NCBI GenBank assembly: GCA_951812965.1
Contig: OX638341.1
Coordinates: forward strand, 310,001 to 374,000
DNA length: 64,000 nt
Origin: an uncultured Pseudohongiella sp.
Lineage (GTDB): Bacteria; Pseudomonadota; Gammaproteobacteria; Pseudomonadales; Pseudohongiellaceae
Direction of reading: 5' to 3'
The position numbers and the translations under genes were made by a program. How positions within the stretch are numbered: position 1 is the first letter of the stretch; every line of letters starts with the position of its first letter. The notes under the pieces are model-generated. The model saw only the letters and a program-made list of their open reading frames with translations. It was not told where the DNA came from and ran no database searches. Positions 18,194 to 48,780 of the stretch are shown in pieces.

Positions 18194-18335
18194 TGAACAA
18201 TTCCCTCCATGGAATTGTTCAGTGCCGCAAAACAAAAACGTGGTTTTGTTTTGCTCCCGGATTCAATGGCTTGCGCCATCGAATCCGGCGGCACATCCCT
18301 GTGCCGCGCGGAAGTGCTGATAACTCAGCGCTTCC
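18194..18335 (-). repeat. Array of five consecutive hairpins between hflX and hflK
   Basis: Five perfect or near-perfect stems packed in 142 bp (plus-strand positions): 18194-18221, 11 bp; 18227-18254, 11 bp (GCAAAACAAAA); 18257-18288, 14 bp with one mismatch and TTGC loop; 18288-18307, GCGGCACA-TCCC-TGTGCCGC; 18310-18335, 11 bp with one G-T pair. On the minus (sense) strand the fourth reads CACAGGGATGTG, a GGA loop. The last stem begins right at the hflX TAG. There is no T-tract, so it is not an ordinary terminator. Confidence 0.85.
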
Positions 18336-19673
18336 CTAAAAGCGGAATTTTACCGAATTTTGGCGTCCAGACACAGTGCCTTCGGGCCGATATTCGGAAT
18401 GTTCTATCCGGCAACCTTCGAGCGCGGCAATGCGCCGTGCCTCGTCCGGCGCCAGTCGCGCCAGCAAATGAAAGTTGCCCGACTCGTCCACGTGTTCCGA
18501 ATCGATACAGCCGCGCGCCAGCAAGCGGGAGCGCAATCCCGCCTGGGCCGGCGGCAGAAACAGCGCTTGTTGCCGCATGTCCTTGCCGAGCAGTTCTCCG
18601 AGCGCACGACGTAATTCTTCTTCGCCGGCGCCGGTAAGCGCCGACATCCAGACGCGTACCGGCCGCCCTTCGCGATCCCTGTCGATACGTGGCTCGACTT
18701 CGGCGCACAGATCGATCTTGTTGCAGACCTGCAGGCGCGGGATGTCGGCCGCGCCGATTTCCGCGAGAACTTCATGCACCTGCCCGATATGCTCCTCGCG
18801 TCTTGCCCCCGCCGCGTCGATAACGTGCACCAGCAACTGAGCTTCCACCGTTTCTTCCAGTGTCGCCTTGAAGGCTTCCACCAGTTGATGAGGCAGATGG
18901 CTGATGAAACCCACCGTATCAGCGAGAATCGCCGCGCCGTAAGCGGGCAGCGTCACGCGCCGCAGGCGCGGGTCCAGTGTCGCGAACAACTGGTCGGCGG
19001 CATAGCCCCCGGCGCCCGTCAGCAGGTTGAACAGCGAAGTCTTGCCGGCATTGGTGTAGCCGACCAGTGAAATCGTCGCCAGGTCCGCCCGCCTGCGCGC
19101 ACCCCGGCCGAGTTCGCGCCGCCCGTGAACCCGCGCGAGACTCTTGCGAATGGACTTGATGCGCTGCCCGATCATGCGCTGGTCAAGTTCGATCTGCTTC
19201 TCGCCGGCGCCGCGCAGACCGATGCCGCCCTTTTGCCGGTCCAGATGAGACCAGCCGCGTTTCAGGCGAGAGCTCAAATGCCGCAACTGGGCGAGTTCGA
19301 CTTGCAGCTTGCCTTCATGGGACTGGGCGCGCTGGGCGAAAATGTCCAGTATCAACCCGGTTCGATCGAGTACGCGGCAACGCAGCCGCCGTTCGAGATT
19401 TCGCTCCTGACTCGGCGACAGCGAATGATTGAACAGCACCAGTCCGGCATCGTGGGATTGCCGGATTTCCGCCAGTTCTTCCAGCTTGCCGGCGCCCAGA
19501 AACGTCGCGGACTCCGGCTTGTCGCGAGACCCCGTGACGACCGCCACGGGATCAGCTCCCGCGGAAATCGCCAGTTCCTCGAATTCGGCCAGATCTTCCT
19601 GGTCGGAGTTAGCGGCTATGTCGATGTGTACGAGTACACAGGTTTCACCGGAATCGGGCCTTTCAAAAAACAA
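18336..19673 (-). CDS. hflX: Ribosome-dissociating GTPase HflX
   Basis: A GTPase that binds and splits stalled ribosomes, notably under heat stress. 445 residues. N-terminal nucleotide-binding-like domain (FEELAISAGADPVAVV), glycine-rich linker (GGIGLRGAGEKQIELD), then the G domain with P-loop GYTNAGKTSLFN, G2/G3 DPRLRRVTLP and ADTVGFI, and G4 NKID. The gene lies downstream of hfq, as is usual. Its stop codon touches the first stem of the hairpin array. Confidence 0.96.
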   Translation of the reverse strand: MFFERPDSGETCVLVHIDIAANSDQEDLAEFEELAISAGADPVAVVTGSRDKPESATFLGAGKLEELAEIRQSHDAGLVLFNHSLSPSQERNLERRLRCRVLDRTGLILDIFAQRAQSHEGKLQVELAQLRHLSSRLKRGWSHLDRQKGGIGLRGAGEKQIELDQRMIGQRIKSIRKSLARVHGRRELGRGARRRADLATISLVGYTNAGKTSLFNLLTGAGGYAADQLFATLDPRLRRVTLPAYGAAILADTVGFISHLPHQLVEAFKATLEETVEAQLLVHVIDAAGARREEHIGQVHEVLAEIGAADIPRLQVCNKIDLCAEVEPRIDRDREGRPVRVWMSALTGAGEEELRRALGELLGKDMRQQALFLPPAQAGLRSRLLARGCIDSEHVDESGNFHLLARLAPDEARRIAALEGCRIEHSEYRPEGTVSGRQNSVKFRF

Positions 19674-19737
19674 CGAAATACCTCAAGCCCGAACCGGAAA
19701 AGGTTCGAAGAGGGATTCGGTGCCGGTCAACCCTGCC

Positions 19738-19995
19738 TTAATGGTCAGCCTCGTCATCCTGATCTTCGGAAGGGTGGTTGACTTGTATCTTTACCATCCG
19801 TCCCGGCACCACGGTGGAAATCGCGTGCTTGTAGACCATCTGACTGACGGCATTCTTGAGCAGTATTACGAACTGATCGAACGATTCGATCTGTCCCTGC
19901 AACTTGATGCCGCTTACCAGATAAATCGATACCGGCACACGATTCTTCCGTAGTGCATTCAAAAACGGATCCTGTAAACTATGTCCCTTGGACAT
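19738..19995 (-). CDS. hfq: RNA chaperone Hfq
   Basis: A hexameric Sm-like protein that pairs small RNAs with mRNAs. 85 residues, with the Sm1 motif [20 protein letters not shown], the proximal-face [10 protein letters not shown] and Sm2 [12 protein letters not shown] short acidic C-terminus ([10 protein letters not shown]) follows, similar to the short-tailed Pseudomonas form. It lies between miaA and hflX as in most gammaproteobacteria. Confidence 0.98.
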
Positions 19996-20064
19996 TCTTG
20001 TTCTCCATTGCTCGCTGCATTATAAGCAGTATGCCTTTGATCAGAGATTTCCTTTTGTTCCTGA

Positions 20065-21036
20065 TTACCAGAATGCGAGCGAATCTACAAATTTCAATAC
20101 TTCATCCAGATTCCATTCCGAATCCTCTTTGAGATTGCGCACCTCTGACCAGCCGCGCAACCAGGTCAACTGCCTTTTGGCTAGTTGTCGCGTCGCCGCG
20201 ACGCCTTTCTCCACCATTTCGGGATAACTTGTCTCTCCATCGAGATACTGCCATATCTGTCGGTAACCCACCGATTTAATGGATGGCAGACCCGGATGAA
20301 GGTCATCCCGCCGGTGAAGTGTTTCCACTTCCGCTATCAGCCCGTCAGACAGCATTTGCCTGAATCGTGACTCGATGCGATCGTGCAATACGCTCCGCTC
20401 GGCCGGGTGGAGTGCCAAAAAATGCAATCTGAAAGATGTAGACCCGCTCGACTGGTTTTTTCTTTCGTCATGAAAATTACTAATTTTTTCGCCGGTGAGT
20501 ATATAGACCTCCAGAGCCCGTTGCAGACGCTGCGGATCATTGGGATGAATCCGCGTGGCCGCTTCCGGATCGACCTCCCTTAGCCGGCGATGAACCGCCG
20601 CCCACCCCTCCTGCACCGCCTGCGCCTCGATATCCCGACGCACGCCGGGGTCGGCGGCGGGCATGGCCGCCAGTCCCTTCCTCAACACCTGGAAATAAAG
20701 CATGGAGCCTCCGACCAGCAAGGGTGTCTTGCCCTTGCCGATGATATCGCTTATTTCGCGCAGGGCATCTTCGCGGAAATTTGCCGCCGAATAGGGTTCC
20801 GCGGGGTCGCGAATGTCGATCAACCGATGGGGCGCCAATGACCGGGTGCGCGCATCCGGTTTTCCGGTGCCGATATCCATCCCCCGGTAGATCTGGGCGG
20901 AGTCTACGCTGATGATTTCCAGCGGGCGGCGCTGCGCCAATTCCACCGCGAGCGCGGTCTTGCCCGCCGCCGTAGGGCCGGTCAGGCAAATCACGTCCGC
21001 CCCGGTGTCCACGAACTGGCGCTCGAATGAAACCAA
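20065..21036 (-). CDS. miaA: tRNA dimethylallyltransferase MiaA
   Basis: Adds an isopentenyl group to A37 of tRNAs reading UNN codons. Seen: P-loop TGPTAAGKTALAVELA, ISVDSAQIYRGMDIGTGKPD, HRLIDIRDP, and QKRQLTWLRGW-type C-terminus. No ATG lies before the P-loop within the conserved part; I place the start at TTG 21036, two bases after the mutL stop, giving 323 residues. GTG at 21012 is the other candidate. The frame stays open to 21105 but that part overlaps mutL. Confidence 0.93.
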   Translation of the reverse strand: MVSFERQFVDTGADVICLTGPTAAGKTALAVELAQRRPLEIISVDSAQIYRGMDIGTGKPDARTRSLAPHRLIDIRDPAEPYSAANFREDALREISDIIGKGKTPLLVGGSMLYFQVLRKGLAAMPAADPGVRRDIEAQAVQEGWAAVHRRLREVDPEAATRIHPNDPQRLQRALEVYILTGEKISNFHDERKNQSSGSTSFRLHFLALHPAERSVLHDRIESRFRQMLSDGLIAEVETLHRRDDLHPGLPSIKSVGYRQIWQYLDGETSYPEMVEKGVAATRQLAKRQLTWLRGWSEVRNLKEDSEWNLDEVLKFVDSLAFW

Positions 21037-21037
21037 G

Positions 21038-22840
21038 CTAACGGCCGCGCAGGAACAACTTGTCGAGTTCGTCCATGGACTGCCAGACCCAGGTTGGCCG
21101 GCCATGATTGCACTGGCCGCTGCGTTCGGTCGCTTCCATGTCCCGTAACAGGGCGTTCATTTCGTCGATTCCGAGCCGGCGGTTGGCGCGCACCGAACCA
21201 TGGCAGGCCATGGTCGACAGTAATTCGTTCTGACGATTCTCAAGCCGGTCACTGGCGCCGAATTCGAGCAAGTCGGAAAGCACGTCGCGCACGAGTTGCT
21301 CGATGTCAGCGTCTTTCAGCAAGGCCGGAACCTGGCGCACGACCACGGATTCGGCGGCAACCCGCTCCAGTTCCAGCCCCAGCGCAAGCAGGCTTTCGCG
21401 ATGAGATTCCGCACAATCCGCCTCCGCTTCGCTGACCGCCAGCGACAGGGGCACGAGCAGGGTCTGCCGCTTGATCCTCTCTTCCTCCAGCGCCTGCTTC
21501 ATGCGCTCGTAGGTGATGCGTTCGTGCGCGGCGTGCATGTCGACGATGATCAGGCCCTCCCTGTTTTGCGCAAGTATGTAGACGCCATGCAGTTGCGCCA
21601 GGGCATATCCCAGAGGGGGAGCTTCCTCACCGCCACTGAACAGTTTCGCGTATTGCTCCGGCGTGCCGACGGGGCTTGCCGCCGGCGCTGACCGCAGGGG
21701 GAAACTGTACTCCCCGGCGGAGTCGCGAACCGGCGCGGAATCGCGCAATGGCAGCGAAGTCTGGGTTGCGGTGGTTTCCGGCCCGGCCTGAAGCGGTTCC
21801 GCATGGCCAGAATCCGGGACCTGGGCTTCCGGCTTGACATCGGCCAGTTCCCGGTGGAGCGAACGGAACAGGAAATCGTGCGCCAGCCGGCCGTCGCGGA
21901 AACGCACTTCGTGCTTGGTTGGATGCACGTTCACGTCCACCGCGCCGGGGTCGAGTTCGAGGAAAAGCACGTATGCCGGATGGCGGCCGTGATACAGGAC
22001 GTCCTGGTAGGCCTGCCGGATCGCATGGCTGACGATCTTGTCGCGCACGATGCGCCCGTTCACATAGAAATATTGCAGGTCCGCCTGGCTGCGCGAAAAG
22101 GCAGGCAGGCTGATCCAGCCCCACAAGCGCAGCCCCGCCGCCTGCTGCTCCACCTCGACCGAGTTTTCGAGAAAGGCGGGGCCGCAAACCAGGCCGACTC
22201 GGCGCCGCTGTTCCAACTCATTACGCGCGGGGCGCAACTCGTGTACGATGCGCTGGTTGTGGCGCAAGCTGAATTGCACGCCGAAGCGGCTGAGCGCAAG
22301 GCGTTTGAGCACTTCGTCAATGCGGCCGAACTCGGTTCTCTCGGTCTTGAGAAATTTCTTTCGCGCAGGCGTGTTGAAAAACAGGTCGCGCACTTCCACG
22401 GTAGCGCCGACGCCATGCTGGCAGGGTTCCAGGGAAGTCTCCATCTGCTGGCCTTCGGCCCGCACTTTCCAGCCGGTTTCGCTGTCGGCTTCAGACGCCC
22501 TGGAGGACAATTCCAGCCTTGATACCGATCCGATGCTGGCCAGTGCCTCGCCACGAAATCCGAGACTGGCGATAGCCGCCAGATCTTCCGGCCGGGAAAT
22601 CTTGCTTGTGGCGTGGCGGCTCAGGGCAAGCGCAAGATCGTCCTTGTGGATGCCTCTACCGTCATCGCGCACCCGCAACAGCTTCTTGCCGCCCTGCTCT
22701 ACATCGATATCCACACGCCCGGCGCCTGCGTCGAGACTGTTTTCGAGCAATTCCTTGAGTACCGATGCCGGGCGCTCGACGACTTCGCCTGCTGCGATCT
22801 GGTTGGCCAGACGCGGACTCAGTCGATTGATGCGATTCAT
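21038..22840 (-). CDS. mutL: DNA mismatch repair protein MutL
   Basis: An ATPase that links MutS to strand incision. 600 residues. N-terminal GHKL ATPase: [20 protein letters not shown], the DDGRGI loop and [11 protein letters not shown] Pro/Ser/Thr linker covers about 340-400. The C-terminal domain has [12 protein letters not shown], matching the DQHA(X)2E(X)4E endonuclease motif with Met for Gln, and CNHGRPT near the end, so it is likely an incising MutL as in Pseudomonas rather than the E. coli type. It is followed by miaA and preceded by amiB. Confidence 0.97.
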
Positions 22841-22861
22841 TTAGTTTTCATTGCAGCACGA

Positions 22862-22883
22862 AAGCTCTGATAAATCAGAGCTT
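22862..22883 (-). repeat. Hairpin abutting the amiB stop codon
   Basis: AAGCTCTGAT-AA-ATCAGAGCTT, a perfect 10-bp stem in the gap between amiB and mutL. On the sense strand it starts within a few bases of the amiB TGA. It is closely related to the hairpins at 18310-18335 and 24450-24476. Confidence 0.75.
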
Positions 22884-22885
22884 CC

Positions 22886-24385
22886 TCAGCGGGGAATTTT
22901 CAACTCACTGCCCACGGCGATCCGGTCGCTTGTCAGATCGTTCGCCTCGCGCAATTGCGACAGGCTTACCGAGTAGCGGTGCGCGATTTCCGACAGTGTA
23001 TCACCGCGCCGGACAACGTAGGTAACCGAAAGTTCGGGTTGGGTCCTTTCGTTTCCGGATTCTGCACCGATCAACGCGTCGACCAGGCTGGTCGCCATGT
23101 TGGCCACTTCGTCGCCCGGCGATGCGGCAAGTCCGGCGCCGTTCGACTTCCGCCAGGCGACGAACGTCCCATCCGGTGCGCGATCGTCGAAATAACTCAC
23201 GATGCCCGTAGCCAGGGCGCCGGCAAGTTGCCGCTGAAAAGAAGGCGAGTTGAGCTTTTCCAGTTCCGCGGGATTGGTCATGTATCCCGTCTCAATCAGG
23301 ATCGAAGGAATATCGGGTGAATTCAGCACTTGCAACGAGGCTTGTTGCACCTTGTCCCTGCGCAGGCGTGTAACCGTGCCCGAGGATTGCAGGATATGCG
23401 AGCCGGCCAACTGGCTTTGTTCCAGGCTCCAGCCCATGTGCACCGAAACCAGCGTCAGCGCCACGTCGTCGTCGAATTCTCCGAGCCGCAGGTCGCTGTC
23501 CACACCGGCGATCAAGTCGGTAGTATTTTCCTTGCGTGCGACCCTGGCGGCGTTTTCCCGGTCTGCGCGCTCGCCGGACAGGGCGTAGATGGTCATGCCG
23601 CTGGCGCTGCTCGAGCGATAGGCATCCGCATGAATGGCTACCAGCAGGTCCGCCCGGTGCTCCCGGGCAATTTCGGCTCTGCCCCGCAAAGGCACGTAAT
23701 AATCCCCGTCGCGAATCATTACCGGTCGATAACCGGGCTCTTCCCGCAGGCGTTCGTTCAGAAAGCGGGAAACCGCCAGGGTGATGTCCTTCTCCCGGTT
23801 GGCGCCGACCATGGCGCCGGGATCTTCGCCGCCGTGACCGGCGGAGATCGCCACGACGATGTCGCGCAAGGCCGGAGGCGCCGCATCTCCGGCTTGGGAA
23901 CGGGACTCGGCCTCATCCCGCTCCGGCAAGGCAATTGCCGGCGGCGATGGTTCCTGCTCGACGTCGTACAGATCGAGCACGAGCCGATCGCCGTATTGCT
24001 CAATGGGAGGCAAGATGAATCCGCGAGGCTCGACCGGGGCGGCGAGTTCGACAACGAAACGCAAGATTCCGCCGGGCGCTTCTTCCCGTCGCAGTCCGGT
24101 CACAGGTCCGCCGACAATAACCGAATCGACGGGATCATCAAAGGATGCGGCGACAACTGAGTCTTCGAGGTCGATTAGCAATTGTCCGGCTGAATCGAGC
24201 CGGATCAACTGGTAGCTGACTTCGCCGTCGAGATCGAATACCAGGCGAGTCCGGTCCGGCGCACGCCAGATCCTGACTCCTTCCACTTCGGCGCCGGCCG
24301 CCGGACCGCCCGGCGCAAGGCATAGCGGAAGCGCGCAACCAGCGGCTGCGAACCATGCGTTCAACCGGCGCCAATACAGATTCAT
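22886..24385 (-). CDS. amiB: N-acetylmuramoyl-L-alanine amidase with AMIN and LysM domains
   Basis: A periplasmic zinc amidase that cuts peptide side chains from glycan during cell separation. 499 residues: signal peptide to about residue 32, AMIN septal-targeting domain (VRIWRAPDRTRLVFDLDGEVSYQL) at about 35-135, Amidase_3 domain from about 180 with zinc ligands in SAGHGGEDPGA, NREKDI, IHADAY and LIETGYMTNP, and a C-terminal LysM (VVRRGDTLSEIAHRYSVSL). An insertion between AMIN and amidase is Ala/Glu rich. It sits between tsaE and mutL, as in other gammaproteobacteria. Confidence 0.95.
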   Translation of the reverse strand: MNLYWRRLNAWFAAAGCALPLCLAPGGPAAGAEVEGVRIWRAPDRTRLVFDLDGEVSYQLIRLDSAGQLLIDLEDSVVAASFDDPVDSVIVGGPVTGLRREEAPGGILRFVVELAAPVEPRGFILPPIEQYGDRLVLDLYDVEQEPSPPAIALPERDEAESRSQAGDAAPPALRDIVVAISAGHGGEDPGAMVGANREKDITLAVSRFLNERLREEPGYRPVMIRDGDYYVPLRGRAEIAREHRADLLVAIHADAYRSSSASGMTIYALSGERADRENAARVARKENTTDLIAGVDSDLRLGEFDDDVALTLVSVHMGWSLEQSQLAGSHILQSSGTVTRLRRDKVQQASLQVLNSPDIPSILIETGYMTNPAELEKLNSPSFQRQLAGALATGIVSYFDDRAPDGTFVAWRKSNGAGLAASPGDEVANMATSLVDALIGAESGNERTQPELSVTYVVRRGDTLSEIAHRYSVSLSQLREANDLTSDRIAVGSELKIPR

Positions 24386-24449
24386 GGCAACTTTCAGAAC
24401 GTCAGATCCCGGTGTTCCATTTTTTCATCACCGCATACATGTGCCGCGA

Positions 24450-24476
24450 GGAAGCTCCGATTTCATCAGAGCTTCC
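24450..24476 (-). repeat. Hairpin abutting the tsaE stop codon
   Basis: GGAAGCTCCGAT-TTC-ATCAGAGCTTCC, a 12-bp stem with one G-T pair. On the sense strand it begins directly after the tsaE TAG. It is preceded on the plus strand by TGTGCCGCG, the same linker found in the hflX-hflK array. Confidence 0.8.
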
Positions 24477-24974
24477 CTAAACATCGACCCCGGCCCACAA
24501 TTTCTTGACTATTTCAGCACCCCTGCCGGAGTGCGCCGTGCATTCGACACCGCGGCCCGCGCCCGCTCCCCGCAATTCGACTTCGAGGTCCGCCGCGGGT
24601 ATTCGCACGCCGCCGCGCCGCGCCCATTCGACGATACACAGGTTTTCGCCTGCGAAGTAATCTTCCGTGCCGAGGAATTCCACTTCACCCGGGTCTGCGA
24701 GACGGTACAGGTCGAAATGATAGATGCGTCGGCGATCGAGTTCATAAGGTTCGACCAGAGTATAGGTAGGACTCTTTACCGGCCCATCGTAGCCATAGCC
24801 GCGCAGAATTCCGCGCGCCAGAGTCGTCTTGCCGGCGCCGAGTTCGCCATGCAGATGAATCACGATGGCGCTTCCGTCCGGAGTCCGCGAGTCCTTCCCG
24901 GTAGCTTCCGCGAGCAATACGCCGAGGCGCAAGGTCGCGGCTTCGTCTTCCAGTTGTCCGGAGAATCGTTGCAT
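24477..24974 (-). CDS. tsaE: tRNA threonylcarbamoyladenosine biosynthesis ATPase TsaE
   Basis: The ATPase partner of TsaB-TsaD in making t6A37 on ANN-decoding tRNAs. 165 residues. Seen: Walker A GELGAGKTTLARGIL, SPTYTLVEPY (switch region), and YHFDLYRLADPGEVEFLG. The order nnr-tsaE-amiB-mutL is conserved in the group. The start at ATG 24974 lies six bases after the nnr stop, suggesting one transcript. Confidence 0.95.
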   Translation of the reverse strand: MQRFSGQLEDEAATLRLGVLLAEATGKDSRTPDGSAIVIHLHGELGAGKTTLARGILRGYGYDGPVKSPTYTLVEPYELDRRRIYHFDLYRLADPGEVEFLGTEDYFAGENLCIVEWARRGGVRIPAADLEVELRGAGAGRGVECTAHSGRGAEIVKKLWAGVDV

Positions 24975-24980
24975 GAGCGT

Positions 24981-26528
24981 TCAGCAGGGATTGACCAGTT
25001 GTCTGATGAAAGGCATGAGATCGGTCGCGATCAGGCCGCGCTGGCCGGCGTCCCGCACGGCAAGGTCCGCCGCTTCGCCGTGAACGCAGGCCGCGCAACT
25101 CAGGCTATCTTCCAGCGAAAGGCCCTGAGCGTGCAGACCTGCAATTATGCCACTGAGTACATCGCCCATGCCTGCGCTCGCCATACCCGGATTGCCCTCC
25201 GAACAGAGTTTGAATCGCCGCGGCTCGCCCGGGACGCCAATGAGGCTGCCCGCTCCCTTGAGCAGGCAATGTCCGCCGTAGCGGCGCTGCAACTCGGCGA
25301 CCGCAGCGAATCGGTCCCGCTGCACTTCTTCCACTTCGATCCCAAGCAATGCGGCTGCTTCGCCCGGATGTGGGGTCAGTATCCAGCCGTTGTCCGGGAA
25401 ATCGGTTTCCGGCAAGGCCTTTTGCGCCAGCAGTCGCAAGGCGTCCGCGTCCGCCACCAGCGGCAGGCCGCGAGTCGAATGACCGCCAAGCGCCGCCCGC
25501 AACAGATTCCGCGACCAGTCGCCCAGTCCAAGACCCGGCCCGACCACGATATTGCTTGCCCGATCGAACAACGCCGGCAAATCCACTCTGCCGTCTTCGG
25601 TGCCGGTAATCATGACCTCGGGTCGACGGGCAAGCAATGCCGGGCGGTGCGTCGAGCGGGTCACCACGCTGACCAGGCCGGCGCCGCTGCGTAACGCCGC
25701 CTCGGCCGCCATGATAATTGCGCCGCCCATGCCATGATCGCCGCCGAACAACAGTACGTGGCCATGGTTGCCCTTGTGCGCCGAGGGCTTGCGCGGGGGC
25801 AGGTAACCGACGCTCGAATGAATGTCGATGCGATCGACTTCGGCAGTCGTTGACGCGCCGGAAGAATGTATCTTCGACGGAGCGTCCAGATCTTCGAAAA
25901 TTACCTCGCCCGTGCAATCCGGACCTCGATGAGTCAGCAGGCCCCGCTTCATGCCGATGAAAGTCACCGTCAATCGGGCGCGCACCGCGGCGCCCATCGG
26001 CGTGCCGGTATCCGCATGGAGCCCGCTGGGAATGTCCACCGCCAGCACGGGCAATCCGCAGGCGTTGATCCATTCGATCGCCTCCAGCCAGTCACCCTCG
26101 GCCGCACGGTTCAGGCCCGTGCCGAACAGGGCGTCTACCACCAGGTCGAAGTCCTTCCATTCACCGGACGTGAATTCCTTGAAAGAGCACATCGGCACCC
26201 TACCTTCGGCCGCCATGCGCCAGGCCCGGGCAGCCGCTCCGGAAAGCTCTTCCGGATTCGCCGGAAACACGATCTGGACGCCGAGCCCGAGTTTCGCCGC
26301 CAGTGCCGCAATGACATAGCCGTCGCCGCCGTTGTTGCCTGTGCCGGCGAAAATCAGCAAGTTTCGGGCATGCTGCCAGCGCTCCTGCAGTCTGGTGAGG
26401 GCCACGGCGCCGGCCCGATGCATGAGTTCGAATTCGTCTATGCCGAGTTCTTTCAGTACGAGCCGGTCCAGTTCGCGAACCTGCTCCGCCTGATACAGGG
26501 CTCGTGGCAAATTTTTGCTCAATTGCAC
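24981..26528 (-). CDS. nnr: Bifunctional NAD(P)HX epimerase/dehydratase
   Basis: Repairs hydrated NADH and NADPH. 515 residues. The N-terminal YjeF_N epimerase (about 1-220) has GTGNNGGDGYVIAAL and PSGLHADTG; the C-terminal ADP-dependent dehydratase of the ribokinase fold has LLFGGDHGMGGAIIMAAEAALRSGAGLV, HPGEAAALLG, LLKGAGSLI and MASAGMGDVLSGIIAGL. Both halves look intact. It probably begins the nnr-tsaE-amiB-mutL-miaA transcript. Confidence 0.95.
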   Translation of the reverse strand: MQLSKNLPRALYQAEQVRELDRLVLKELGIDEFELMHRAGAVALTRLQERWQHARNLLIFAGTGNNGGDGYVIAALAAKLGLGVQIVFPANPEELSGAAARAWRMAAEGRVPMCSFKEFTSGEWKDFDLVVDALFGTGLNRAAEGDWLEAIEWINACGLPVLAVDIPSGLHADTGTPMGAAVRARLTVTFIGMKRGLLTHRGPDCTGEVIFEDLDAPSKIHSSGASTTAEVDRIDIHSSVGYLPPRKPSAHKGNHGHVLLFGGDHGMGGAIIMAAEAALRSGAGLVSVVTRSTHRPALLARRPEVMITGTEDGRVDLPALFDRASNIVVGPGLGLGDWSRNLLRAALGGHSTRGLPLVADADALRLLAQKALPETDFPDNGWILTPHPGEAAALLGIEVEEVQRDRFAAVAELQRRYGGHCLLKGAGSLIGVPGEPRRFKLCSEGNPGMASAGMGDVLSGIIAGLHAQGLSLEDSLSCAACVHGEAADLAVRDAGQRGLIATDLMPFIRQLVNPC

Positions 26529-26693
26529 ACCTGATGTTCTGAATCGTCGACTGATTGATTTTACCGCATTACCGACGGTCGCCTTCCGGGGTCGAACGAA
26601 TTGGCCGACGCCGAAAGCCCCTCATATTGGCGGGAAATTCAATGTGTGGCAATGTAATGGAAAATATTTTCTGAAAACGACCGATTCGAATGA

Positions 26694-26720
26694 GTCGGAT
26701 AAATAGGTCTATAATTCGCT
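26694..26720 (+). promoter_or_regulatory. tRNA-Pro promoter (-10)
   Basis: TATAAT at 26710-26715 lies 38 bp before the tRNA, followed by a G/C-containing discriminator. The -35 region (CGAATG at 26687-26692) is poor, but an A/T-rich stretch at 26660-26680 could serve as an UP element. Confidence 0.5.
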
Positions 26721-26753
26721 TTCGCGATTTCCCCCTGCCGGGAATGCGTATGT

Positions 26754-26830
26754 CGGAGTGTAGCTCAGCCTGGTAGAGCACTGCCTTCGGGAGGCAGGGG
26801 TCGCAGGTTCAAATCCTGCCATTCCGACCA
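26754..26830 (+). tRNA. tRNA-Pro(CGG)
   Basis: 77 nt with encoded CCA. Acceptor CGGAGTG/CATTCCG (one G-T pair), discriminator A. Anticodon stem CTGCC/GGCAG with loop TTCGGGA gives anticodon CGG, reading CCG. T arm GCAGGTTCAAATCCTGC. The first base C is typical of tRNA-Pro. Confidence 0.97.
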
Positions 26831-26854
26831 CTTCCCGGCCAAACGACGCTGGCC

Positions 26855-27412
26855 ATGCAGATGAAACCGATGCCCCGGAAGCCGATCATGCCGCGATTGT
26901 TCCCGGTCAGAGCCACCCTGATTTGCATCTTCAGTTTTGCCGGCCTGTCGGCATTCGGGGCAGAAGAGTCGATCGATGAAGCCAACCGGCTTTTGCGCGT
27001 AACCGGCACGGGGGAATTGTTCGAGTCGACCACACGCGAACAGGCCCAGGAAATCATACGCACCTATTCTCTCATCGTCTCCAGTTCCGCCGACCGTTCC
27101 CTGCCTCGGCGCGTTCGCGACGCCATAGCCGAATGTTATAGCCGCAATTACGCCTGGGAAAATTTCGCCGAGGGCATCGCCCGAATCCTGGCCGACCATC
27201 TCAGCGAAAAGGAATTGCGCCTGCTGATCGGCATCTACCAGAACCGCGGCCTGCCCCCGATGGAAATAGAAACCTTCCGGCAAACCGTACGCAAGGGCGA
27301 TGCCATCGCCGCGGCCAGCGCCGAATACATCTACGACAACAGCACCGGCTGCGTAGACCAGGACGCCCGCCTCATCAAACGCTTCCTCGCCGAACCCCAA
27401 CCCGAAGTCTGA
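26855..27412 (+). CDS. Secreted DUF2059-like protein
   Basis: A 185-residue protein with a signal peptide (RATLICIFSFAGLSAFG, cleavage near residue 35). The mature helical part has LLRVTGTGELFESTT near its start and DHLSEKELRLLIGIYQNRGLP towards the end, the pattern of DUF2059 proteins, whose function is unknown. It begins 25 bp after tRNA-Pro in the same direction and could share its transcript. Several ATGs occur early; 26855 is the first, and the third or fourth is equally possible. The family call is from pattern only. Confidence 0.6.
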   Translation: MQMKPMPRKPIMPRLFPVRATLICIFSFAGLSAFGAEESIDEANRLLRVTGTGELFESTTREQAQEIIRTYSLIVSSSADRSLPRRVRDAIAECYSRNYAWENFAEGIARILADHLSEKELRLLIGIYQNRGLPPMEIETFRQTVRKGDAIAAASAEYIYDNSTGCVDQDARLIKRFLAEPQPEV

Positions 27413-27492
27413 CTGAGTACACCCGCAAAGATTCTGCGACTACACTCCGCCCCGCGCAGAATGACAGTGTGCAGGTTGAAATACATGTGAGA

Positions 27493-27616
27493 CCGTAGGG
27501 GCGAACCGTTGACGGTTGATTCGGTTACATGCGAGACGGTAGGGGCAAGGCATACCTCGCCCGCGACCGACCCCGAAATTGTGCAAGACCCGCGGGCGAC
27601 GCATGCGTCGCCCCTA
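27493..27616 (+). repeat. REPIN-like family: full copy with an extra partial arm
   Basis: The full copy is 27539-27616 (arms 27539-27565 and 27591-27616; the first arm has two changes, the second has GGGCGACGCATGCGTCGCCC with compensating changes that keep the palindrome). Before it, GAGACCGTAGGGGCGA at 27490-27505 is a second arm start. The copy lies in the 470-bp gap 27413-27883, which holds no gene. Confidence 0.85.
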
Positions 27617-27659
27617 CCGGGCGCACAGACAGTTGGTTTTGAGGCCGGCACGGTGTGAG

Positions 27660-27777
27660 TCGCCGTTGGGTCAGGGGGTGTGCAGCGGGCGTGCGAGACA
27701 TGGATGTCAAGCCCGAAGCGTACAGGGATGTATTTACAGCGTCCGCTGCATACTGCCCGCCAGACGGCGAAGTATCG
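27660..27777 (+). repeat. GGA-hairpin string, copy at 27.7 kb
   Basis: Conserved end modules TGCAGCGGGCGTGCGAG (27681-27697) and TTTACAGCGTCCGCTGCA (27734-27751) match the ends of the 48.6-kb element. Between them are two hairpins with GGA loops: GACA-TGGA-TGTC (27697-27708) and TACA-GGGA-TGTA (27721-27732). The second fits the CsrA consensus RUACARGGAUGU exactly when preceded by G27720. It lies upstream of and in sense with the 27884 operon. Confidence 0.75.
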
Positions 27778-27883
27778 CAGCCACGACCGGTTGAACCCCC
27801 ACGCCGCATTGAGTTGGCCGCTGGTTTGCCGCACAATACTTATCCCCATTTGAAACGCGACTTGTGATCCGGAGGATTCCATC

Positions 27884-28408
27884 ATGTACGTTCGCACACC
27901 TGTCACTACCTTGCTGTTTTCGGTTTTCGCGCTGGTTCTGGCCGCTTGCGGGCCTCAATACCAGGTCGACAGGGAAGCGCTCGAAGCCGCGGAGATTTCC
28001 AATTTCAGCACCCCGGAGGAGATGGTTTTCGCCGCCGGCCAACCCACCCCGGAACAGATTCAGACCCTGGCGGACTCCGGCATTCGCCATGTCATCAGCC
28101 TGCGCACCGATGGCGAAATCGACTGGGATGAATCAAATCTGGTCAACGCCGCCGGCATGCAGTTTCATTCCATTCCCGTGGCGGGCGCCGATGGCGTAAC
28201 CAGCGAGAATGCCCAGACGCTGGATCAGTTGCTCGCGCAACTCGACGGCCAGCCCGTGCTCCTGCATTGCGGCAGTAGCAATCGGGTCGGCGCCTTGCGC
28301 GCCAGGACCGCCCGTGACGGCGGCGCAAGCCTTGAGGACGCCCTGGCCGAAGGCCGGCGCTGGGGCATGACGCGCATGGAAGAAACCGTGCGCGAGATTT
28401 TGCAATAA
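27884..28408 (+). CDS. Lipoprotein with DUF442/protein-phosphatase-like domain
   Basis: 174 residues, lipoprotein signal (VFALVLAAC, Cys22). The mature part follows the DUF442 (beta-lactamase-hydrolase-like, cysteine phosphatase fold) pattern: FAAGQPTPEQIQTLADSGIRHVISLR, then the active-site loop HCGSSNRVGAL with Cys129 and Arg134 (CX5R would need HCxxxxxR, which fits). A clear GGAGG lies eight bases before the ATG. DUF442 domains often accompany sulfide and persulfide oxidation genes; here the next gene is a YeeE/YedE transporter, four bases away. Periplasmic phosphatase or sulfur-related role is inference. Confidence 0.7.
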   Translation: MYVRTPVTTLLFSVFALVLAACGPQYQVDREALEAAEISNFSTPEEMVFAAGQPTPEQIQTLADSGIRHVISLRTDGEIDWDESNLVNAAGMQFHSIPVAGADGVTSENAQTLDQLLAQLDGQPVLLHCGSSNRVGALRARTARDGGASLEDALAEGRRWGMTRMEETVREILQ

Positions 28409-28411
28409 GCA

Positions 28412-29623: not shown

Positions 29624-29648
29624 TGCCCAGCGCTTCGCCGCGTGCAGC

Positions 29649-37914: not shown

Positions 37915-37940
37915 ACCGGCGCGGCCAGCAGGCACTGAGC

Positions 37941-38667: not shown

Positions 38668-38688
38668 CCTGGGCGGTGTCGGAGTAAT

Positions 38689-39201: not shown

Positions 39202-39332
39202 GAATTGATGAACTCGGTTGGCAACGGGCGTAGACTGTCCGCGTCGGCAGATTCTATCGCGTTTGCCTTCTTCAGGGACTTGAATGCCCCGCAAACCGGT
39301 TCCAAGAGATTCAGGTCCAGGAGAAATCCGCC

Positions 39333-40958: not shown

Positions 40959-40985
40959 TACCGGCCGCTTGTCGCCATCAAGGCT

Positions 40986-41351: not shown

Positions 41352-41453
41352 ACCTACTTTGTGTGTGAGAGTTGGCGCGATACGTTCGTTTCGAAAGTCG
41401 ATCCCGGTCGCGTACCGCTGCGCCTATTGTCCGGTTAATTACGCACCCGTCAA

Positions 41454-43876: not shown

Positions 43877-45185
43877 CCGAGGTTGTGTTGCTCTTGTCTC
43901 CCCAGGACTCGATTTCCAGTCCCATCAGACGTTGAGCGGTATAACCCAGGCGACAACCCGGCGATCCGGCCCCATCGATATGCAATCCTGTCTTTACCCG
44001 GCCGCCGGCGGTCCCCGCACTGAACATGGGAATCCCGTCGATGGCGTGAGTCTTGGCGAAAGACTGATCTGTCGTGCAGTAAATCAGGGCGTTATCCAGC
44101 AAAGAGCCGTCTCCCTCCCTGAAACTGGCTAAAGCGCCAACGTAGTAAGCCCATTCTTCCATGGCGCGGCGAGTGTACCAGGACACATTGGGCTGATAGC
44201 CGAGTTCGCTGTCTACCGCTTCTTCATGAGTCGCCGTGTGGTGGGGTTTGTCATAGCCCGGTTTGGTAGTGGCCGAAAACGCGGACGCATAAAACATGTT
44301 GAACACGCGAGTCTGATCGCAGGCAACCGCCATCAGCATCAGTTCGGTCATCATGCGATGACGCTTCGATACGAGATCGGCATCGAGTCCGGTAGGCAAG
44401 TCTTCCGGCGCTACACTGACGATGCAAGCTTCGCGAGGATCCGGTTTCGTCAATTGCAAATCGAAGCGCCTTTCAAGATCACGCAATCCGGTAAAGTATT
44501 GATCCAGTCTTGCACGATCCGCCGATCCCAAAGATTTTTCCAGCTTTTTGGCATCGTCCTGTACGGCGGAGAGCGCGCTCTTTCTCACCATCACCCGCGG
44601 GTCCGGGGTAAAGGAATCGGCGTTGGGATCCTGAAAATCTTCTCCGAACAACCGCTGATAAAATCGGAGCGGCGACCATTCGGGAACATTTACCGAGTTA
44701 CCGCCTTCGTAACTGAAGCTGTCCCGCATGTCACCGGTCGCGGTTGCGCTAAGGCTGCGGAATCGAGTGGCGTTGCCGATCTGGCGCGCAACGGAAACAT
44801 CGATGGTTTCACCAGGGCGATTTTCCGAGGTCATCGGTGCGATGCCGGAGCGTAAAACGACCCAGCCGGAGTGATGACACAAATTGGGCGCGTCATCCTT
44901 GAATACGTGAAAATTGGTGTACAGGTTTATGTGCTTCTGAATAGGCGCCAGGGCTGCTATTTCTTCCGGCAGATCGAAATCCGGTCCCGTTTTTTTCGGC
45001 ACGAATATCGATTCGCTCATGCCGAGACCCCAGGACCAGGTGCCGAAGCGCATGGGTATGGGAGCACCATTGGCCAATGCCGACCCGTTCTCGTTCAGGA
45101 AGACATCCAGTAATGGCAGACCGACGGTGATCACACCGCCATTCAAAGCTCCTTTCAAGAATCTGCGTCGATTGAATTTGCCCAT
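43851..45185 (-). CDS. DUF1552 secreted protein with Tat signal
   Basis: 444 residues from ATG 45185. The N-terminus is a twin-arginine signal (NRRRFLKGALNGGVITVGLPLLD). The DUF1552 core is typical: FGTWSWGLGMSE, MTELMLMAVACDQTRVFNMFYASAFS, and YCTTDQSFAKTH. Tat export suggests that it folds with a cofactor before export. DUF1552 is almost always paired with a DUF1592 cytochrome-like protein, as here (start four bases after that gene's stop). The reaction is unknown. No DUF1552 role can be read from the sequence. Confidence 0.9.
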   Translation of the reverse strand: MGKFNRRRFLKGALNGGVITVGLPLLDVFLNENGSALANGAPIPMRFGTWSWGLGMSESIFVPKKTGPDFDLPEEIAALAPIQKHINLYTNFHVFKDDAPNLCHHSGWVVLRSGIAPMTSENRPGETIDVSVARQIGNATRFRSLSATATGDMRDSFSYEGGNSVNVPEWSPLRFYQRLFGEDFQDPNADSFTPDPRVMVRKSALSAVQDDAKKLEKSLGSADRARLDQYFTGLRDLERRFDLQLTKPDPREACIVSVAPEDLPTGLDADLVSKRHRMMTELMLMAVACDQTRVFNMFYASAFSATTKPGYDKPHHTATHEEAVDSELGYQPNVSWYTRRAMEEWAYYVGALASFREGDGSLLDNALIYCTTDQSFAKTHAIDGIPMFSAGTAGGRVKTGLHIDGAGSPGCRLGYTAQRLMGLEIESWGDKSNTTSGEIGEILV

Positions 45186-45189
45186 GATT

Positions 45190-46929
45190 TCACCGTTGCG
45201 GCGGCGGGCCGAATTCAGGCCCACTGAATCGGTATGGCGTTTCACTCGCATCTGAACCGCTTATATTACCTTGAATTTCACCCGGCGATATAGTGGAGAA
45301 CGCCTCGCTGAGCGCGACATCGCGCAACAGCGCACTCAGTTTGTAACCATTGGCGACGAAGCGGTTTTCAAACCAGCTAATGATGTCGCGGTCGCGACGT
45401 AACGACACCGGACCGCCGGTACCGTAGGCATAGAGGCGATTCACCAGACAGTTCGAGAGTTTCGGATGATCCCGCATTGCCGCTGCCAGACCTTTCGCAT
45501 CGTCGTAGAGTACGCCATCCAACTCACCGCTCAAGTCCAGCGCCGCGCCGTTTTCAGTCTCCCGGAAACGCCCCGCGCCATCGAAATTCTCCAGCGCAAG
45601 CCCGATAGGATCGGTAATAAGATGGCATCCCGCACAAGATGGGTTGGTATTGTGTACGTCGAGTCGCTCGCGCGCCGTGGCTGCATGCTCGGCTTCTTCC
45701 AGCAGGGAAAAATCCACGTTCGGAGGTGGAGGAGGCACGACCTGGCAAAGGAAGCGCTCGCGTAGCGCCTGCCCCCGCAGTGTCGGTGAACTACGCACCG
45801 CATGGGAATTCGCGGCGAGAAAGCTGACTTGTGTCAGCAATCCGATTCGCGGGCTGTCAGCGTCGAATTCATAAGGGGTCCAGCCGTTGCCGGCGGGAAT
45901 GCCATAGACAACGGCAAGTGCCGGAGACATGAACGTCTTGCGCGTGGTGAACAGATCACGATAGTCCGATTCCTGGTGAAGCAGGTGATCGATGATGGTT
46001 CGCAGTGTCTGTTCCCGCGCATCCTGCAAGGTGGACCCGGTAACCATCGGATAGACAATCGGATCTTTTGCCAGGCTGTTGAATTCATCGAAACCGAGCA
46101 TGTCATCGAAGAACGCGCGCATGCCTGATTCGAGTCTTGCACTGGACAGCATCCGCTCGACCGTGGCGCTCAGCCCTGCCCGGGTATGTAATTCTCCGCT
46201 TTCCGCCGCATCCAGCAAAGCATGGTCGGGAGGCCCGTTCCACAGGAAAAAACTCAAGCGGGAGGCTAATGACCAGGCGTCAAGTCGCTCCAGTCCCGGG
46301 CGGCCCGGATGGGGTTCCGCCTGATCCACGATAAACAGGAATTCCGGGCTGATCAGTATGGATTCCAGCGCCAGGGCCAATCCCGAATAGAAATCTTCCG
46401 TTTGTTCCGCCGCGTAGCCGGCGATATCGACAAGCTCGGCCAGTCGAACGTCCTCAAGCGTCTGGCGATTGAGTAGTCGACCCGTTTCGCGCAAAAACAG
46501 TTCCGCACAAACCGGATCGGCTTGCTCCGGTGATTCCGGCCGGCAGGGGATCAGAAAATCACGATGCGCTTCGTCGACCGCTTTTGCCGCTATTGACGTC
46601 GCGGTCTGCTGTATTTGAGAAACCTGGTCGGAAGTAACGCCAACATAAGCGGCGCCGGAAGCCAGCAGGCCATCGGTCCTGGCCATCGGTGGAATCGGAG
46701 GGAGTATGCTGCCGCTAATGTCCTCGCCGAATACCTGCGCAATCGTATTCGAGTATTGGTCTCCGGTCATCAGGCGCGTTCTGAGTACCGAGGCAGTTTG
46801 CGGAGGCTCTGCCGTAGTAGCGGAATCACGCTCGCAGGCAGTCAGCGACAGCGTTGCAATAATTGCAATTGCACCGGCTGGTCGCGCCAGTTTACTGGCA
46901 AACGAAAGGGACAAATTGAATTGCCTCAT
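45190..46929 (-). CDS. DUF1592/DUF1588/DUF1585 c-type-cytochrome-like protein
   Basis: 579 residues with a lipoprotein-like signal (IIATLSLTAC). The order typical of this group is seen: an N-terminal RLMTGDQYSNTIAQVFGED segment, DUF1595/1592 (RLSFFLWNGPPDHALLDAAESGEL, MRAFFDDMLGFD), DUF1588 with a single heme motif CAGCH in NPSCAGCHLITDPIG, and DUF1585 towards the end. Such proteins are abundant in Planctomycetes and some gammaproteobacteria; no activity is proved. It likely passes electrons to or from its Tat-exported DUF1552 partner. Confidence 0.9.
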   Translation of the reverse strand: MRQFNLSLSFASKLARPAGAIAIIATLSLTACERDSATTAEPPQTASVLRTRLMTGDQYSNTIAQVFGEDISGSILPPIPPMARTDGLLASGAAYVGVTSDQVSQIQQTATSIAAKAVDEAHRDFLIPCRPESPEQADPVCAELFLRETGRLLNRQTLEDVRLAELVDIAGYAAEQTEDFYSGLALALESILISPEFLFIVDQAEPHPGRPGLERLDAWSLASRLSFFLWNGPPDHALLDAAESGELHTRAGLSATVERMLSSARLESGMRAFFDDMLGFDEFNSLAKDPIVYPMVTGSTLQDAREQTLRTIIDHLLHQESDYRDLFTTRKTFMSPALAVVYGIPAGNGWTPYEFDADSPRIGLLTQVSFLAANSHAVRSSPTLRGQALRERFLCQVVPPPPPNVDFSLLEEAEHAATARERLDVHNTNPSCAGCHLITDPIGLALENFDGAGRFRETENGAALDLSGELDGVLYDDAKGLAAAMRDHPKLSNCLVNRLYAYGTGGPVSLRRDRDIISWFENRFVANGYKLSALLRDVALSEAFSTISPGEIQGNISGSDASETPYRFSGPEFGPPPQR

Positions 46930-47057
46930 TTGCTGGTAAGGTCAAGCGGAGCGGACAAGGCATTATCGAGTATTTGTTCCGGATGATCAAAGATCAATGC
47001 GGCCCGGCACGCACAATCCCGTTGGGGGCGACAATGCGGCCTGCCGCACACAATCCT

Positions 47058-47136
47058 GTAGGGGCGAGGCATGCCTCGCCCGCGAACGGCCTCGGCGTCG
47101 TGCAACACCCACGGGCGAGGCATGCCTCGCCCCTAC
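47058..47136 (+). repeat. REPIN-like family: full copy
   Basis: Arms 47058-47084 and 47112-47136, both with the perfect 20-bp palindrome, inverted around GAACGGCCTCGGCGTCGTGC and a few more bases. It lies in the 269-bp gap between the triheme cytochrome and the DUF1592 gene. Confidence 0.9.
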
Positions 47137-47139
47137 GTC

Positions 47140-47203
47140 CTGTTTGAGGTCATTCGTCGTTGATTGCCGTTCTGTTCGAGGTCATCCGTCGTTGGTTGTT
47201 ATC
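47140..47203. repeat. Two-copy imperfect direct repeat
   Basis: CTGTTTGAGGTCATTCGTCG at 47140 recurs as CTGTTCGAGGTCATCCGTCG at 47172 (period 32). The second copy runs into the stop codon of the triheme cytochrome gene. Confidence 0.6.
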
Positions 47204-48506
47204 GTTGACGCGCTACCTGCGCGGGGGTCACGACACCCGCTGAATTTTCCCAGGAATTGCGAATGTAACTGGCTACCGCCGCAATTTCCTCGTCGTCGAG
47301 CTGATATTGAAACTCTTCCATGGGTTCCCTCCATTTTGGAGGCAGCGGATGTCCTGGAGATTCCGGCCCGTACAAGATGGCATTGATCATGGACGCCGGA
47401 TTCGAGGACTGCACAACCAGACTGCCCGCATTAAGCCTGGGCGCCATTTCCGGATCGCCCTCGCCGGTTGGAAGATGGCAGGCGCCGCAGTGGAGATTGT
47501 AGATCGTCCGGCCGCGACCCATGATTTGCGAATCCGGCATTCTTGCCATGGGCTCGTCGACAGCAGGCAGACTCTTGAGGTAGACAGCCATGGCATTGAT
47601 ATCACTGTCCGATAGAAATCGCGTGCTGTTCATGATGACCTGGTTCATTGGCCCGAACGATTCCAGAAACTCATTTCGCGCGGACTTTAAGTAGTCTTCG
47701 ATATCCTGTTGTGTCCACAATCCGAGGCCGCGCTCCGTTGCGGTAAGATTGGGTGCGGCCCAGGGCCGGTGCGCTCCGCTTCTGACGCGGTCCAGGTACT
47801 CGCCGCCGCTCATGTGCAACTCTTTTTGCTCTGCTCCCAGACCGTTTCTCGGCGTGTGGCAGGCGCTGCAGTGAGCCAACCCTTCAACCAGATAGGCGCC
47901 ACGATTCCATTCATCGGTTTGATCTTCGTTCGGTTCAAATGCTCCCGGTTTGAGATAGATTGCTTTCCAGAAGGCCATCAGCGGCCGGATATTGAATGGG
48001 AACGACAACTCATTTTCCGGCGCGGCTTGATACACCGGTGGAATACTTTGCAAATAGGCATGGATCGCCGCGATGTCTTCATTGGAAATCCTGGTGAATG
48101 CAGTGTAGGGAAATGCCGGGTAAAGATGCTCGTTATCGGGTCTGACGCCATGCCGCATCGAATTCAGGAAATCCCGATCGCTCCAGTTGCCGATTCCGGT
48201 GTCTGCATCGGGAGTAATGTTGGTTGAATACAGTGTGCCAAACGGCGTTTCAAACGCCAGTCCACCGGCCATGAACTCGCCGTCGGCCGTGGTGTGACAA
48301 CTCGCGCAATTGCCGGCGATCGACAGATACTCGCCTCGCGCCAACAACTCATCCCCGCTGATATCCAGGATGGCGATCGGACCGTCTTCCTCGCTCGAAT
48401 CGGAACGCAACAGGAAGGCAGTCAGGACAACTATCGCAATTAGGGCCGCAACGGCAATGTGGCGCAAGGAAAATGTCAAATCGGCTACTCGATGTAATTG
48501 CCGCAA
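47199..48506 (-). CDS. Triheme cytochrome c, dehydrogenase-subunit type
   Basis: 435 residues: one N-terminal membrane segment (IAVAALIAIVVLTAFLL) and three class I cytochrome domains with heme motifs CASCH (67-71), CSACH (213-217) and CGACH (340-344). The sequence follows the membrane cytochrome subunit of alcohol and aldehyde dehydrogenases: FETPFGTLYSTNITPDADTGIGNW and LPTGEGDPEMAPRL. No large dehydrogenase subunit lies next to it. It probably feeds the DUF1592/DUF1552 operon downstream in the same direction. Confidence 0.9.
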   Translation of the reverse strand: MRQLHRVADLTFSLRHIAVAALIAIVVLTAFLLRSDSSEEDGPIAILDISGDELLARGEYLSIAGNCASCHTTADGEFMAGGLAFETPFGTLYSTNITPDADTGIGNWSDRDFLNSMRHGVRPDNEHLYPAFPYTAFTRISNEDIAAIHAYLQSIPPVYQAAPENELSFPFNIRPLMAFWKAIYLKPGAFEPNEDQTDEWNRGAYLVEGLAHCSACHTPRNGLGAEQKELHMSGGEYLDRVRSGAHRPWAAPNLTATERGLGLWTQQDIEDYLKSARNEFLESFGPMNQVIMNSTRFLSDSDINAMAVYLKSLPAVDEPMARMPDSQIMGRGRTIYNLHCGACHLPTGEGDPEMAPRLNAGSLVVQSSNPASMINAILYGPESPGHPLPPKWREPMEEFQYQLDDEEIAAVASYIRNSWENSAGVVTPAQVARQR

Positions 48507-48550
48507 TTACAACGACATCGACCGGTTAAGTCCAGTGGTGGCTTCGATCC

Positions 48551-48780
48551 GTCGCTGTCTGGTGAAATCAGGTGCAGCGGACGCCGTAAATACGGTCCGC
48601 TGACTGCCTTCATTTGCATTTTGCAAGCCGTCCCTGGCGCAACTTCCTTGGTTTCGCCAACCCCCAGTCTCGACATCCTGTCGAGCCGTTCGGTCCTCAA
48701 GAAGCTTTGCTTCTTGTCGGCTGCGCCGACCGGGCCTCACCCTCGCACGCCCGCTGCACCTGATTTCACCAGACGGCGAC
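48551..48780 (-). mobile_element. 230-bp MITE-like element with 30-bp terminal inverted repeats, carrying GGA hairpins
   Basis: Terminal inverted repeats 48551-48580 and 48751-48780 agree at 29 of 30 positions (inner part CTGGTGAAATCAGGTGCAGC). No target duplication is seen. The minus-strand interior holds GTCGGC-GCA-GCCGAC, AAGAAGC-AAA-GCTTCTT, CTCGACAGGATGTCGAG, GCGCCAGGGACGGC, TTGCA-AAA-TGCAA and a CCGTA-TT-TACGG stem. Its core matches 13074-13195 and its end modules match 27681-27751. It fills the 401-bp gap 48507-48907, and its GGA strand is in sense with the cytochrome gene starting at 48506. Confidence 0.8.

Follow-up and report, generated by a model that had tools for sequence, protein, structure and literature searches.

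CsrA and RsmE owe their specificity to a hexaloop, ANGGAX, held atop a stem (passages of PMC4005645). The CsrA consensus from systematic evolution of ligands by exponential enrichment (SELEX) is RUACARGGAUGU, with ACA and GGA fully conserved, and CsrA dimers bridge 10-63 nucleotides (nt) with an optimum above 18 (passages of PMC7652899). Among dispersed palindromes, YPAL repeats show target-site duplications of 3-26 bp and empty sites (passages of PMC2229807), and a 168-nt copy of RU-2 is printed in PMC2759123. In Pseudomonas putida, RNA from intergenic regions adjacent to ISPpu8 and from a long palindromic region is bound by RsmA, RsmE and RsmI, and in the passages at hand the authors leave the meaning of such Rsm-bound palindromic and mobile-element RNA open (PMC7937890). 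Here we analyse a 64,000-nt window of an uncultured Pseudohongiella sp. (positions 310001-374000 of a 3.43-Mb, one-contig genome, contig OX638341.1), in which a preliminary description had singled out four intergenic places with strings of GGA-looped hairpins. These four places are copies of three unrelated repeat families, A, B and C, and it is probable, judging from sequence, that the families represent mobile palindromes with paired hairpins on which CsrA would dock.

Repeat families and their CsrA-type loops

The hairpins quoted in the preliminary description are present in all four regions on inspection of the sequence; what did not survive is their unity, since they fall into three families and the region at 48551-48780 is a copy of C nested in B (Table 1). 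A single family that is always in sense was rejected because there are three families and the orientation of A and B is random. Family A (~147 nt) is a string of five hairpins with 21 long copies, defined as those over 90 bits, in a search of the Pseudohongiella genome. Family B (~123 nt) forms a long palindrome topped by two small hairpins, and family C (~123 nt) has a closing helix around two hairpins, followed by two more. The listings for this genome hold 46 rows of C, including fragments and nested copies, and 59 rows of B, including reverse-strand echoes and halves of composites. In each family there are two CsrA-type hairpins per element.

The loops follow the published rule closely. 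Among the full copies from the Pseudohongiella genome that were aligned (20 of the 21 long rows of A, 31 of 46 rows of C and 18 of 59 rows of B), 134 of the 138 hairpins with GGA loops conform to C[A(N)GGA(X)]G: 20/20 each for A hairpins 2 and 5, 29/31 each for C hairpins 3 and 4, and 18/18 for both B hairpins, the second of these read from the alignment. The A and the GGA are near-invariant, N takes all four bases in A hairpin 2, and there is variation in X; when N is absent the loop becomes the pentaloop AGGAX. Other hairpins of the same elements carry other loops. The CsrA match claimed in the preliminary description is strongly supported. The string ACAGGGATGT occurs 15 times genome-wide against once for its reversed control, and by reading of the listing 13 of the 15 occurrences lie within repeats and 2 (L002, L012) outside. 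Family A has a second conserved loop motif, CCACG or near it, in hairpin 4 of most copies in this genome and several distant ones.

Taken by itself, the window shows no clear excess of such hairpins. Those with an A-N-GGA-X hexaloop and a stem of at least 4 number 3 against a mean of 2.5 (64 triplets, rank 23), and those with a stem of at least 5 number 2 against 0.8 (rank 11), so the significance comes from the repeats. This lack of clear over-representation is what chance, or the palindrome bias of a GC-rich genome, would produce, and yet such an origin is vanishingly improbable given dozens of homologous copies with covariation and a reversed-pattern control of 0 in every genome listed.

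Pairing of the sites extends beyond the Pseudohongiella genome. Of 119 B-type copies in other genomes, 116 had enough flank to be checked for a second CsrA-type hairpin, which is present in 97 and lacking in 19, and in 96 of the 97 two-hairpin copies the GGA starts are 22-24 nt apart. The gap between sites in B is thus ~20 nt, a spacing that would suit one CsrA dimer. Read from the alignments of the Pseudohongiella copies, the corresponding gap is 42 nt for C and 87 nt for A.

Table 1. Repeat copies, CsrA-type hairpins and an adjoining gene in the window (positions are those of the 64,000-nt window)
Feature	Position	Strand	Remarks
ROK-family sugar kinase gene	12156-13073		TGA stop is the family C element's own TGA
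Family C copy, stand-alone	13070..13190	+	adjoins 3' end of ROK-family sugar kinase gene
C hairpin 3, hexaloop AGGGAT	13125..13142	+	CTCACCAGGGATGGCGAG; C-G closing pair; one A-C mismatch
C hairpin 4, hexaloop ATGGAC	13173..13184	+	
Family A copy	18189..18335	-	between hflX (18336-19673) and hflK (16920-18155)
A hairpin 5, hexaloop ATGGAG	inside 18193..18222	-	AATTCCATGGAGGGAATT; overlooked in the preliminary description
A hairpin 2, hexaloop AGGGAT	within 18288..18307	-	CACAGGGATGTG
Family B copy (YPAL/RU-2 kin)	27660..27783	+	
B hairpin 1, hexaloop ATGGAT	27697..27708	+	GACATGGATGTC
B hairpin 2	27720..27732	+	GTACAGGGATGTA; holds GTACAGGGATGT (27720-27731), a full CsrA SELEX consensus match
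Composite, family C copy nested in family B core	48539..48780	-	
Family C copy nested in B	48620..48741	-	
C hairpin 4, hexaloop AGGGAC	48627..48638	-	
C hairpin 3, pentaloop AGGAT	48669..48685	-	CTCGACAGGATGTCGAG

Locally, the stand-alone C copy is followed by purA on the opposite strand, and the A copy has its first base directly after the hflX stop codon, within the gene order hfq-hflX-A-hflK. The B copy has a long imperfect outer stem in which ~27660-27690 pairs with 27740-27769. The C-in-B arrangement of 48551-48780 recurs elsewhere in the genome with an identical junction. B/C composites (e.g. L096, L101, L103, L107) contain an extra inner module, ..GGCAAGCGTTTATGAAGCGCAGCTTCATG..CGCCAAGCTGTGCTTGGCG.., with variants, and this module inside B and C copies indicates that the elements are nested and modular. 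The window also holds other repeats. A fourth family, D3 (GTAGGGGCGAGGCATGCCTCGCCCGC and its mirror), has twelve listed copies between 11644 and 62985, dense in the window, and has the palindrome GCATGC as its core in place of a GGA loop. A tandem array of 63-bp units occupies 57475-58041, with seven overlapping registers listed at 62-98% identity to the reference.

Stem turnover and strand asymmetry

The stems of all three families change in a paired manner. Both-sided changes that keep pairing are found at 17 of 51 pairs in A, 14 of 28 in C and 22 of 42 in B, and for each family the count of compensatory changes exceeds that in every one of 500 shuffles and in every slid version; on another measure, the number of further pair types, 68 of 500 shuffles reach the value for A and 3 of 500 that for C. 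Hairpin 1 of A was out of register in this test (51.8% paired) and is in register in a separate alignment check of the family. Helix 1 of B comprises 32 pairs, with 94.1% of cells paired and 20 pairs altered on both sides. Genome-wide, the outer arms of B are hypervariable between copies and mostly self-complementary within a copy, as if the arms corrected one another or were under selection to pair.

Across genera the stems are largely replaced and the loops persist. Distant copies of A and C were found at 37 places outside the Pseudohongiella genome, from which 20 loci were chosen and fetched and 17 were readable; by reading, 31 of the 34 GGA hairpins in these 17 copies fit the loop rule. 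Among the A copies, L288 is without both GGA hairpins and L285 without the second. At L287 the second GGA hairpin has an imperfect stem and fits as a string. Loops that vary freely on constant stems had been named in the preliminary description as evidence that would speak against CsrA, and the opposite is found: the ANGGAX and AGGAX loops stay and the stems change. The CsrA reading of the loops is, in our judgement, well supported by this pattern of sequence evolution. Eight B-type copies of Methylotuvimicrobium buryatense 5G (L248-L267) have exchanged hairpin 2, CCTAC..GTA, for CCCCC-ATGGAT-GGG, a wholesale stem swap with the hexaloop kept.

The same comparison bears on the proposal that these are ordinary structured repeats, such as hairpins that stabilise RNA, whose loops look conserved only from recent copying. 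YPAL-like repeats have been discussed as possible RNA-stability elements (passages of PMC2229807 and PMC2267715), and the mean column identity within the Pseudohongiella genome, 83-88% for families A-C, speaks for recent copying. Replacement of the stems between genera around persisting loops makes this explanation quite improbable, however, as do the free variation of N and the presence of other loops on other hairpins of the same elements.

When B-type copies are aligned with the type of mismatch disregarded, the mismatches of their outer arms are asymmetric between strands. On the GGA strand, G-U outnumbers A-C by 95 to 49, and by similarity cluster G-U exceeds A-C in 24 against 9 (33 informative of 49 clusters, p=0.0135). 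The outer arms of M. buryatense give 76 to 53 (p=0.05) and the B copies of the Pseudohongiella genome 7 to 2 (p=0.18); the short stems of families A and C offer too few such events, except in A hairpin 3 with 12 to 0. The excess of G-U favours a single-stranded state of the GGA strand, either as RNA or as DNA. By analogy, judged from the description of its targets, the P. putida pull-down offers independent support for an RNA form (passages of PMC7937890).

Orientation, placement and distribution

Orientation to neighbouring genes was recorded with home-made gene calls, based on codon usage or longest open reading frames (ORFs), and coded with == for sense and xx for antisense. In the Pseudohongiella genome the counts of ==, xx, =x and x= are 8, 6, 6 and 1 for family A, 6, 5, 5 and 5 for full copies of B, 4, 2, 3 and 3 for the 12 rows of C nested in B, and 15, 1, 7 and 1 (plus one =?) for the 25 rows of stand-alone C. 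B-type copies in the reference genomes are distributed 13, 13, 14 and 14, once two groups are set aside: 27 rows that are far from genes or at an edge, and 38 that fall within ORFs (31 sense, 7 antisense), these ORFs being judged mostly spurious readings through palindromes. In 400 kb of M. buryatense 5G (G249), 78 copies give 20, 19, 21 and 17 with one inside a gene, and ANGGA is intact in 17/20, 15/19, 19/21 and 16/17, respectively.

The preliminary description had counted sense orientation in four of four places. Within the window this is weaker than claimed: the regions at 18194 and 27660 are flanked by two same-strand genes, the 13074 region lies between convergent genes and the 48551 region is in sense only to its downstream gene. 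Genome-wide, the rule holds for stand-alone C (15 against 1) and fails for A and B, where random orientation, which had been listed as evidence against the proposal, is indeed what is found. The notion of sense leaders and trailers accordingly survives for C copies as trailers, while for A and B a better description is that of mobile palindromes with CsrA-type sites. The random orientation of A and B, taken with the lack of antisense decay of B loops, makes it most likely that their sites would serve the element itself, either its spread or its harmlessness, rather than the neighbouring gene.

These features invite an explanation in which a mobilising enzyme recognises the A(N)GGA(X) hairpins on single-stranded DNA of one strand, with the likeness to CsrA sites incidental. 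Constraint from mobilisation would be expected to yield random orientation of A and B and B loops about equally intact in sense and antisense copies; the nesting of the families in each other and their sharing of modules fit as well, and a strand-specific single strand would also account for the excess of G-U over A-C. We nevertheless consider it unlikely, since the loop A is fixed though its would-be partner X varies and N is free, the hexaloop is interchangeable with the pentaloop AGGAX, and ACA..GU flanks B hairpin 2 as in the SELEX consensus (passages of PMC7652899). Stand-alone C is moreover sense-biased with several copies tied to stop codons, and no mobilising enzyme was identified, none having been searched for.

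Families A and C are frequently placed at stop codons; B in the Pseudohongiella genome shows no clear preference for them. Seven of the 21 long copies of A start on the base after the stop codon of the sense gene, and eight stop 1-5 nt away from where an opposing gene ends, one copy belonging to both groups. For family C, the upstream sense gene ends between -5 and +1 nt of the first base in 11 of 46 rows, and 9 of these 11 codon-usage genes end on the element's own TGA. Longest-ORF calls, which differ from the codon-usage calls at some copies, place a stop at this TGA for 10 of 36 rows; in three of these the ORF has fewer than 90 codons and the copy is nested in B.

Distant copies of C repeat this placement, with 6 of 8 in exact stop-codon register, once with TAA instead of TGA. 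The genes upstream are, by NCBIfam, xerD twice, rimK twice and nqrF, the sixth being without a family at threshold. Two genera belonging to one family have a C copy with xerD before it and dsbC after it, the stems differing and the loops kept (for the dsbC call, DsbC is the best family with scores just below cut-off). The xerD/dsbC interval of L269 holds at least 5 tandem C-type units of ~100 nt each in the stretch printed; one unit has GGA changed to GGC in hairpin 3. In the copy at nqrF the stop codon is within the helix GTAAATCATG/CATGATTTAC, and the partner strand therefore appears to follow the stop codon. Family C is the best candidate, on present sequence comparisons, for a CsrA-bound 3' untranslated region (3' UTR) used by the host.

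The genome contains csrA, the absence of which had been named in the preliminary description as evidence against its proposal. The csrA product has L4 and R44, which we take to be RNA-binding residues, and is close to CsrA-family chains of solved structure (best 1vpz). The B core recurs across Gammaproteobacteria and is found in at least 117 stretches of reference genomes; the genera among the matches listed include Methylotuvimicrobium, Methylocucumis, Ectothiorhodospira, Thioalkalivibrio, Stenotrophomonas, Rheinheimera and Thiosymbion. Of 369 genomes sampled from the class, 41 have the B core at up to 2 mismatches (reversed control 0), copy number per genome ranges from none to 503, and csrA is present in 313 of the 369 genomes and in 39 of the 41. 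Co-occurrence with csrA was rejected as proof, csrA being too common to discriminate. Of 398 genomes in a phylum sample, 21 have a B-core match and 20 of these are within the class; the sole genome outside has a single match with 2 mismatches.

Families C and A occur in 10 and 9, respectively, of 194 genomes of the order, a count that takes in the Pseudohongiella genome; the 2 further genomes of its genus and 4 of its family that were sampled have neither. These searches used strict filters with at most 18 and 16 candidates scored per genome, so weak copies may be missed. The patchy distribution of A and C suggests mobility or frequent loss. Phages, plasmids and E. coli gave no match to the 60-nt B core, and viral contigs none to the exact 26-nt B core. 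With a C copy of another genome as query, the matches were confined to a 31-nt stretch of one Xanthomonas plasmid, phages giving none, and the C copy of the window had no plasmid match. In the viral contigs (L298-L377), 252 stretches encode relatives of the host CsrA.

Several observations weigh against mobile palindromes with paired CsrA docking hairpins. The gap in family A, 87 nt, is beyond the published bridging range. Family B is without a sense rule or orientation-dependent decay, and no cis selection by host genes is visible. In M. buryatense, invariance equal to that of GGA is also seen at several core positions outside the loop. Co-occurrence of csrA and the B core is not significant (39/41 vs 274/328, Fisher p=0.06), and 2 of the 41 B-core genomes have no csrA match over cut-off, both being fragmented assemblies (G196, 98% complete in ~270 contigs; G343, 85% in ~350 contigs). 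The putative mobility rests on the scattered copies, the patchy distribution and the YPAL literature. Finally, the Rfam family Ysr224 (Yersinia small RNA 224, RF02770), which aligns over its whole length with a Methylocucumis copy (E 2e-8) and overlaps the B core in 6 of 8 loci scanned, all matches being below the gathering score, lies on the non-GGA strand.

In sum, we picture the copies as small palindromic repeats with a scatter like that of miniature inverted-repeat transposable elements, each bearing what by published rules would be two CsrA/RsmA loops of the high-affinity type. An element transcribed on its GGA strand would allow a CsrA dimer to clamp both hairpins, and this clamping would be the reason the loops are kept; all copies together would then act as a dispersed CsrA sponge to the extent that they are transcribed. 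More tentative, and in our estimate rather doubtful, is the wider proposal that Gammaproteobacterial mobile palindromes with paired high-affinity CsrA sites form a genome-wide, transposon-borne CsrA sink and that family C is a 3' UTR element which, with the upstream stop codon in its closing helix, couples termination with CsrA binding.

If CsrA binds these elements, dispersed repeats of debated role gain a concrete partner, and the free CsrA pool would depend on repeat content. The match of two hairpins per element to the known CsrA binding site suggests that apparently mobile elements of this kind bring with them preformed sites at which a global regulator could dock. Target predictions confined to the vicinity of ribosome-binding sites would miss such sites. 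The proposal also makes it testable why the palindromes tolerate large stem turnover and hardly any loop change.

Relation to described repeats and RNAs

A described RNA family for these elements was rejected after Rfam scans: at the gathering threshold the window returned two tRNAs only, and a permissive scan of 12900-28000, which covers one copy each of A, B and C and stops short of the composite at 48539-48780, returned nothing on the elements. CsrB (RF00018) reached at best 12.7 bits against a cut-off of 71 in the Pseudohongiella genome, the RsmY and RsmZ models not having been run genome-wide. The literature search returned no paper linking YPAL/RU-2 to CsrA, and the YPAL passages at hand name no CsrA site.

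The closest relatives of family B are YPAL and RU-2. The core of two GGA hairpins, ..GCGCCAAGGATGGCGC..CTACATGGATGTATTTACGGCGTC.., is common to both (compared by eye with Table 1b in PMC2759123), and the palindromic arms and intergenic scatter given for YPAL/RU-2 in the passages at hand are also seen in family B and its kin. Families A and C differ from YPAL/RU-2 in core sequence and architecture and have only the GGA hairpin loops in common with them (alignments by eye). Family B belongs to a known kind of element, which the loops show in a new light, and A and C look undescribed in Rfam and the literature searched.

In their placement, A and C resemble GTAG repetitive extragenic palindromes (REPs) and other stop-codon-adjacent repeats, whose ends supply or abut flanking stop codons (passages of PMC3733652). 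Unlike GTAG REPs, however, C supplies its TGA (once TAA) within a closing helix and A often begins right after the stop, both are multi-hairpin strings with GGA loops, and the GTAG tag is absent from the aligned ends, A beginning (TA)GGGAAGC or AAGGAAGC and C beginning GGTGAG. The Rsm targets of P. putida KT2440 likewise include mobile-element and palindromic RNA, a likeness drawn from their description (passages of PMC7937890). The sponge RNAs CsrB and RsmX/Y/Z likewise present repeated A(N)GGA-loop hairpins that fit CsrA (passages of PMC7652899 and PMC5864184); in the families described here, by contrast, there are two sites per element and the copies are dispersed.

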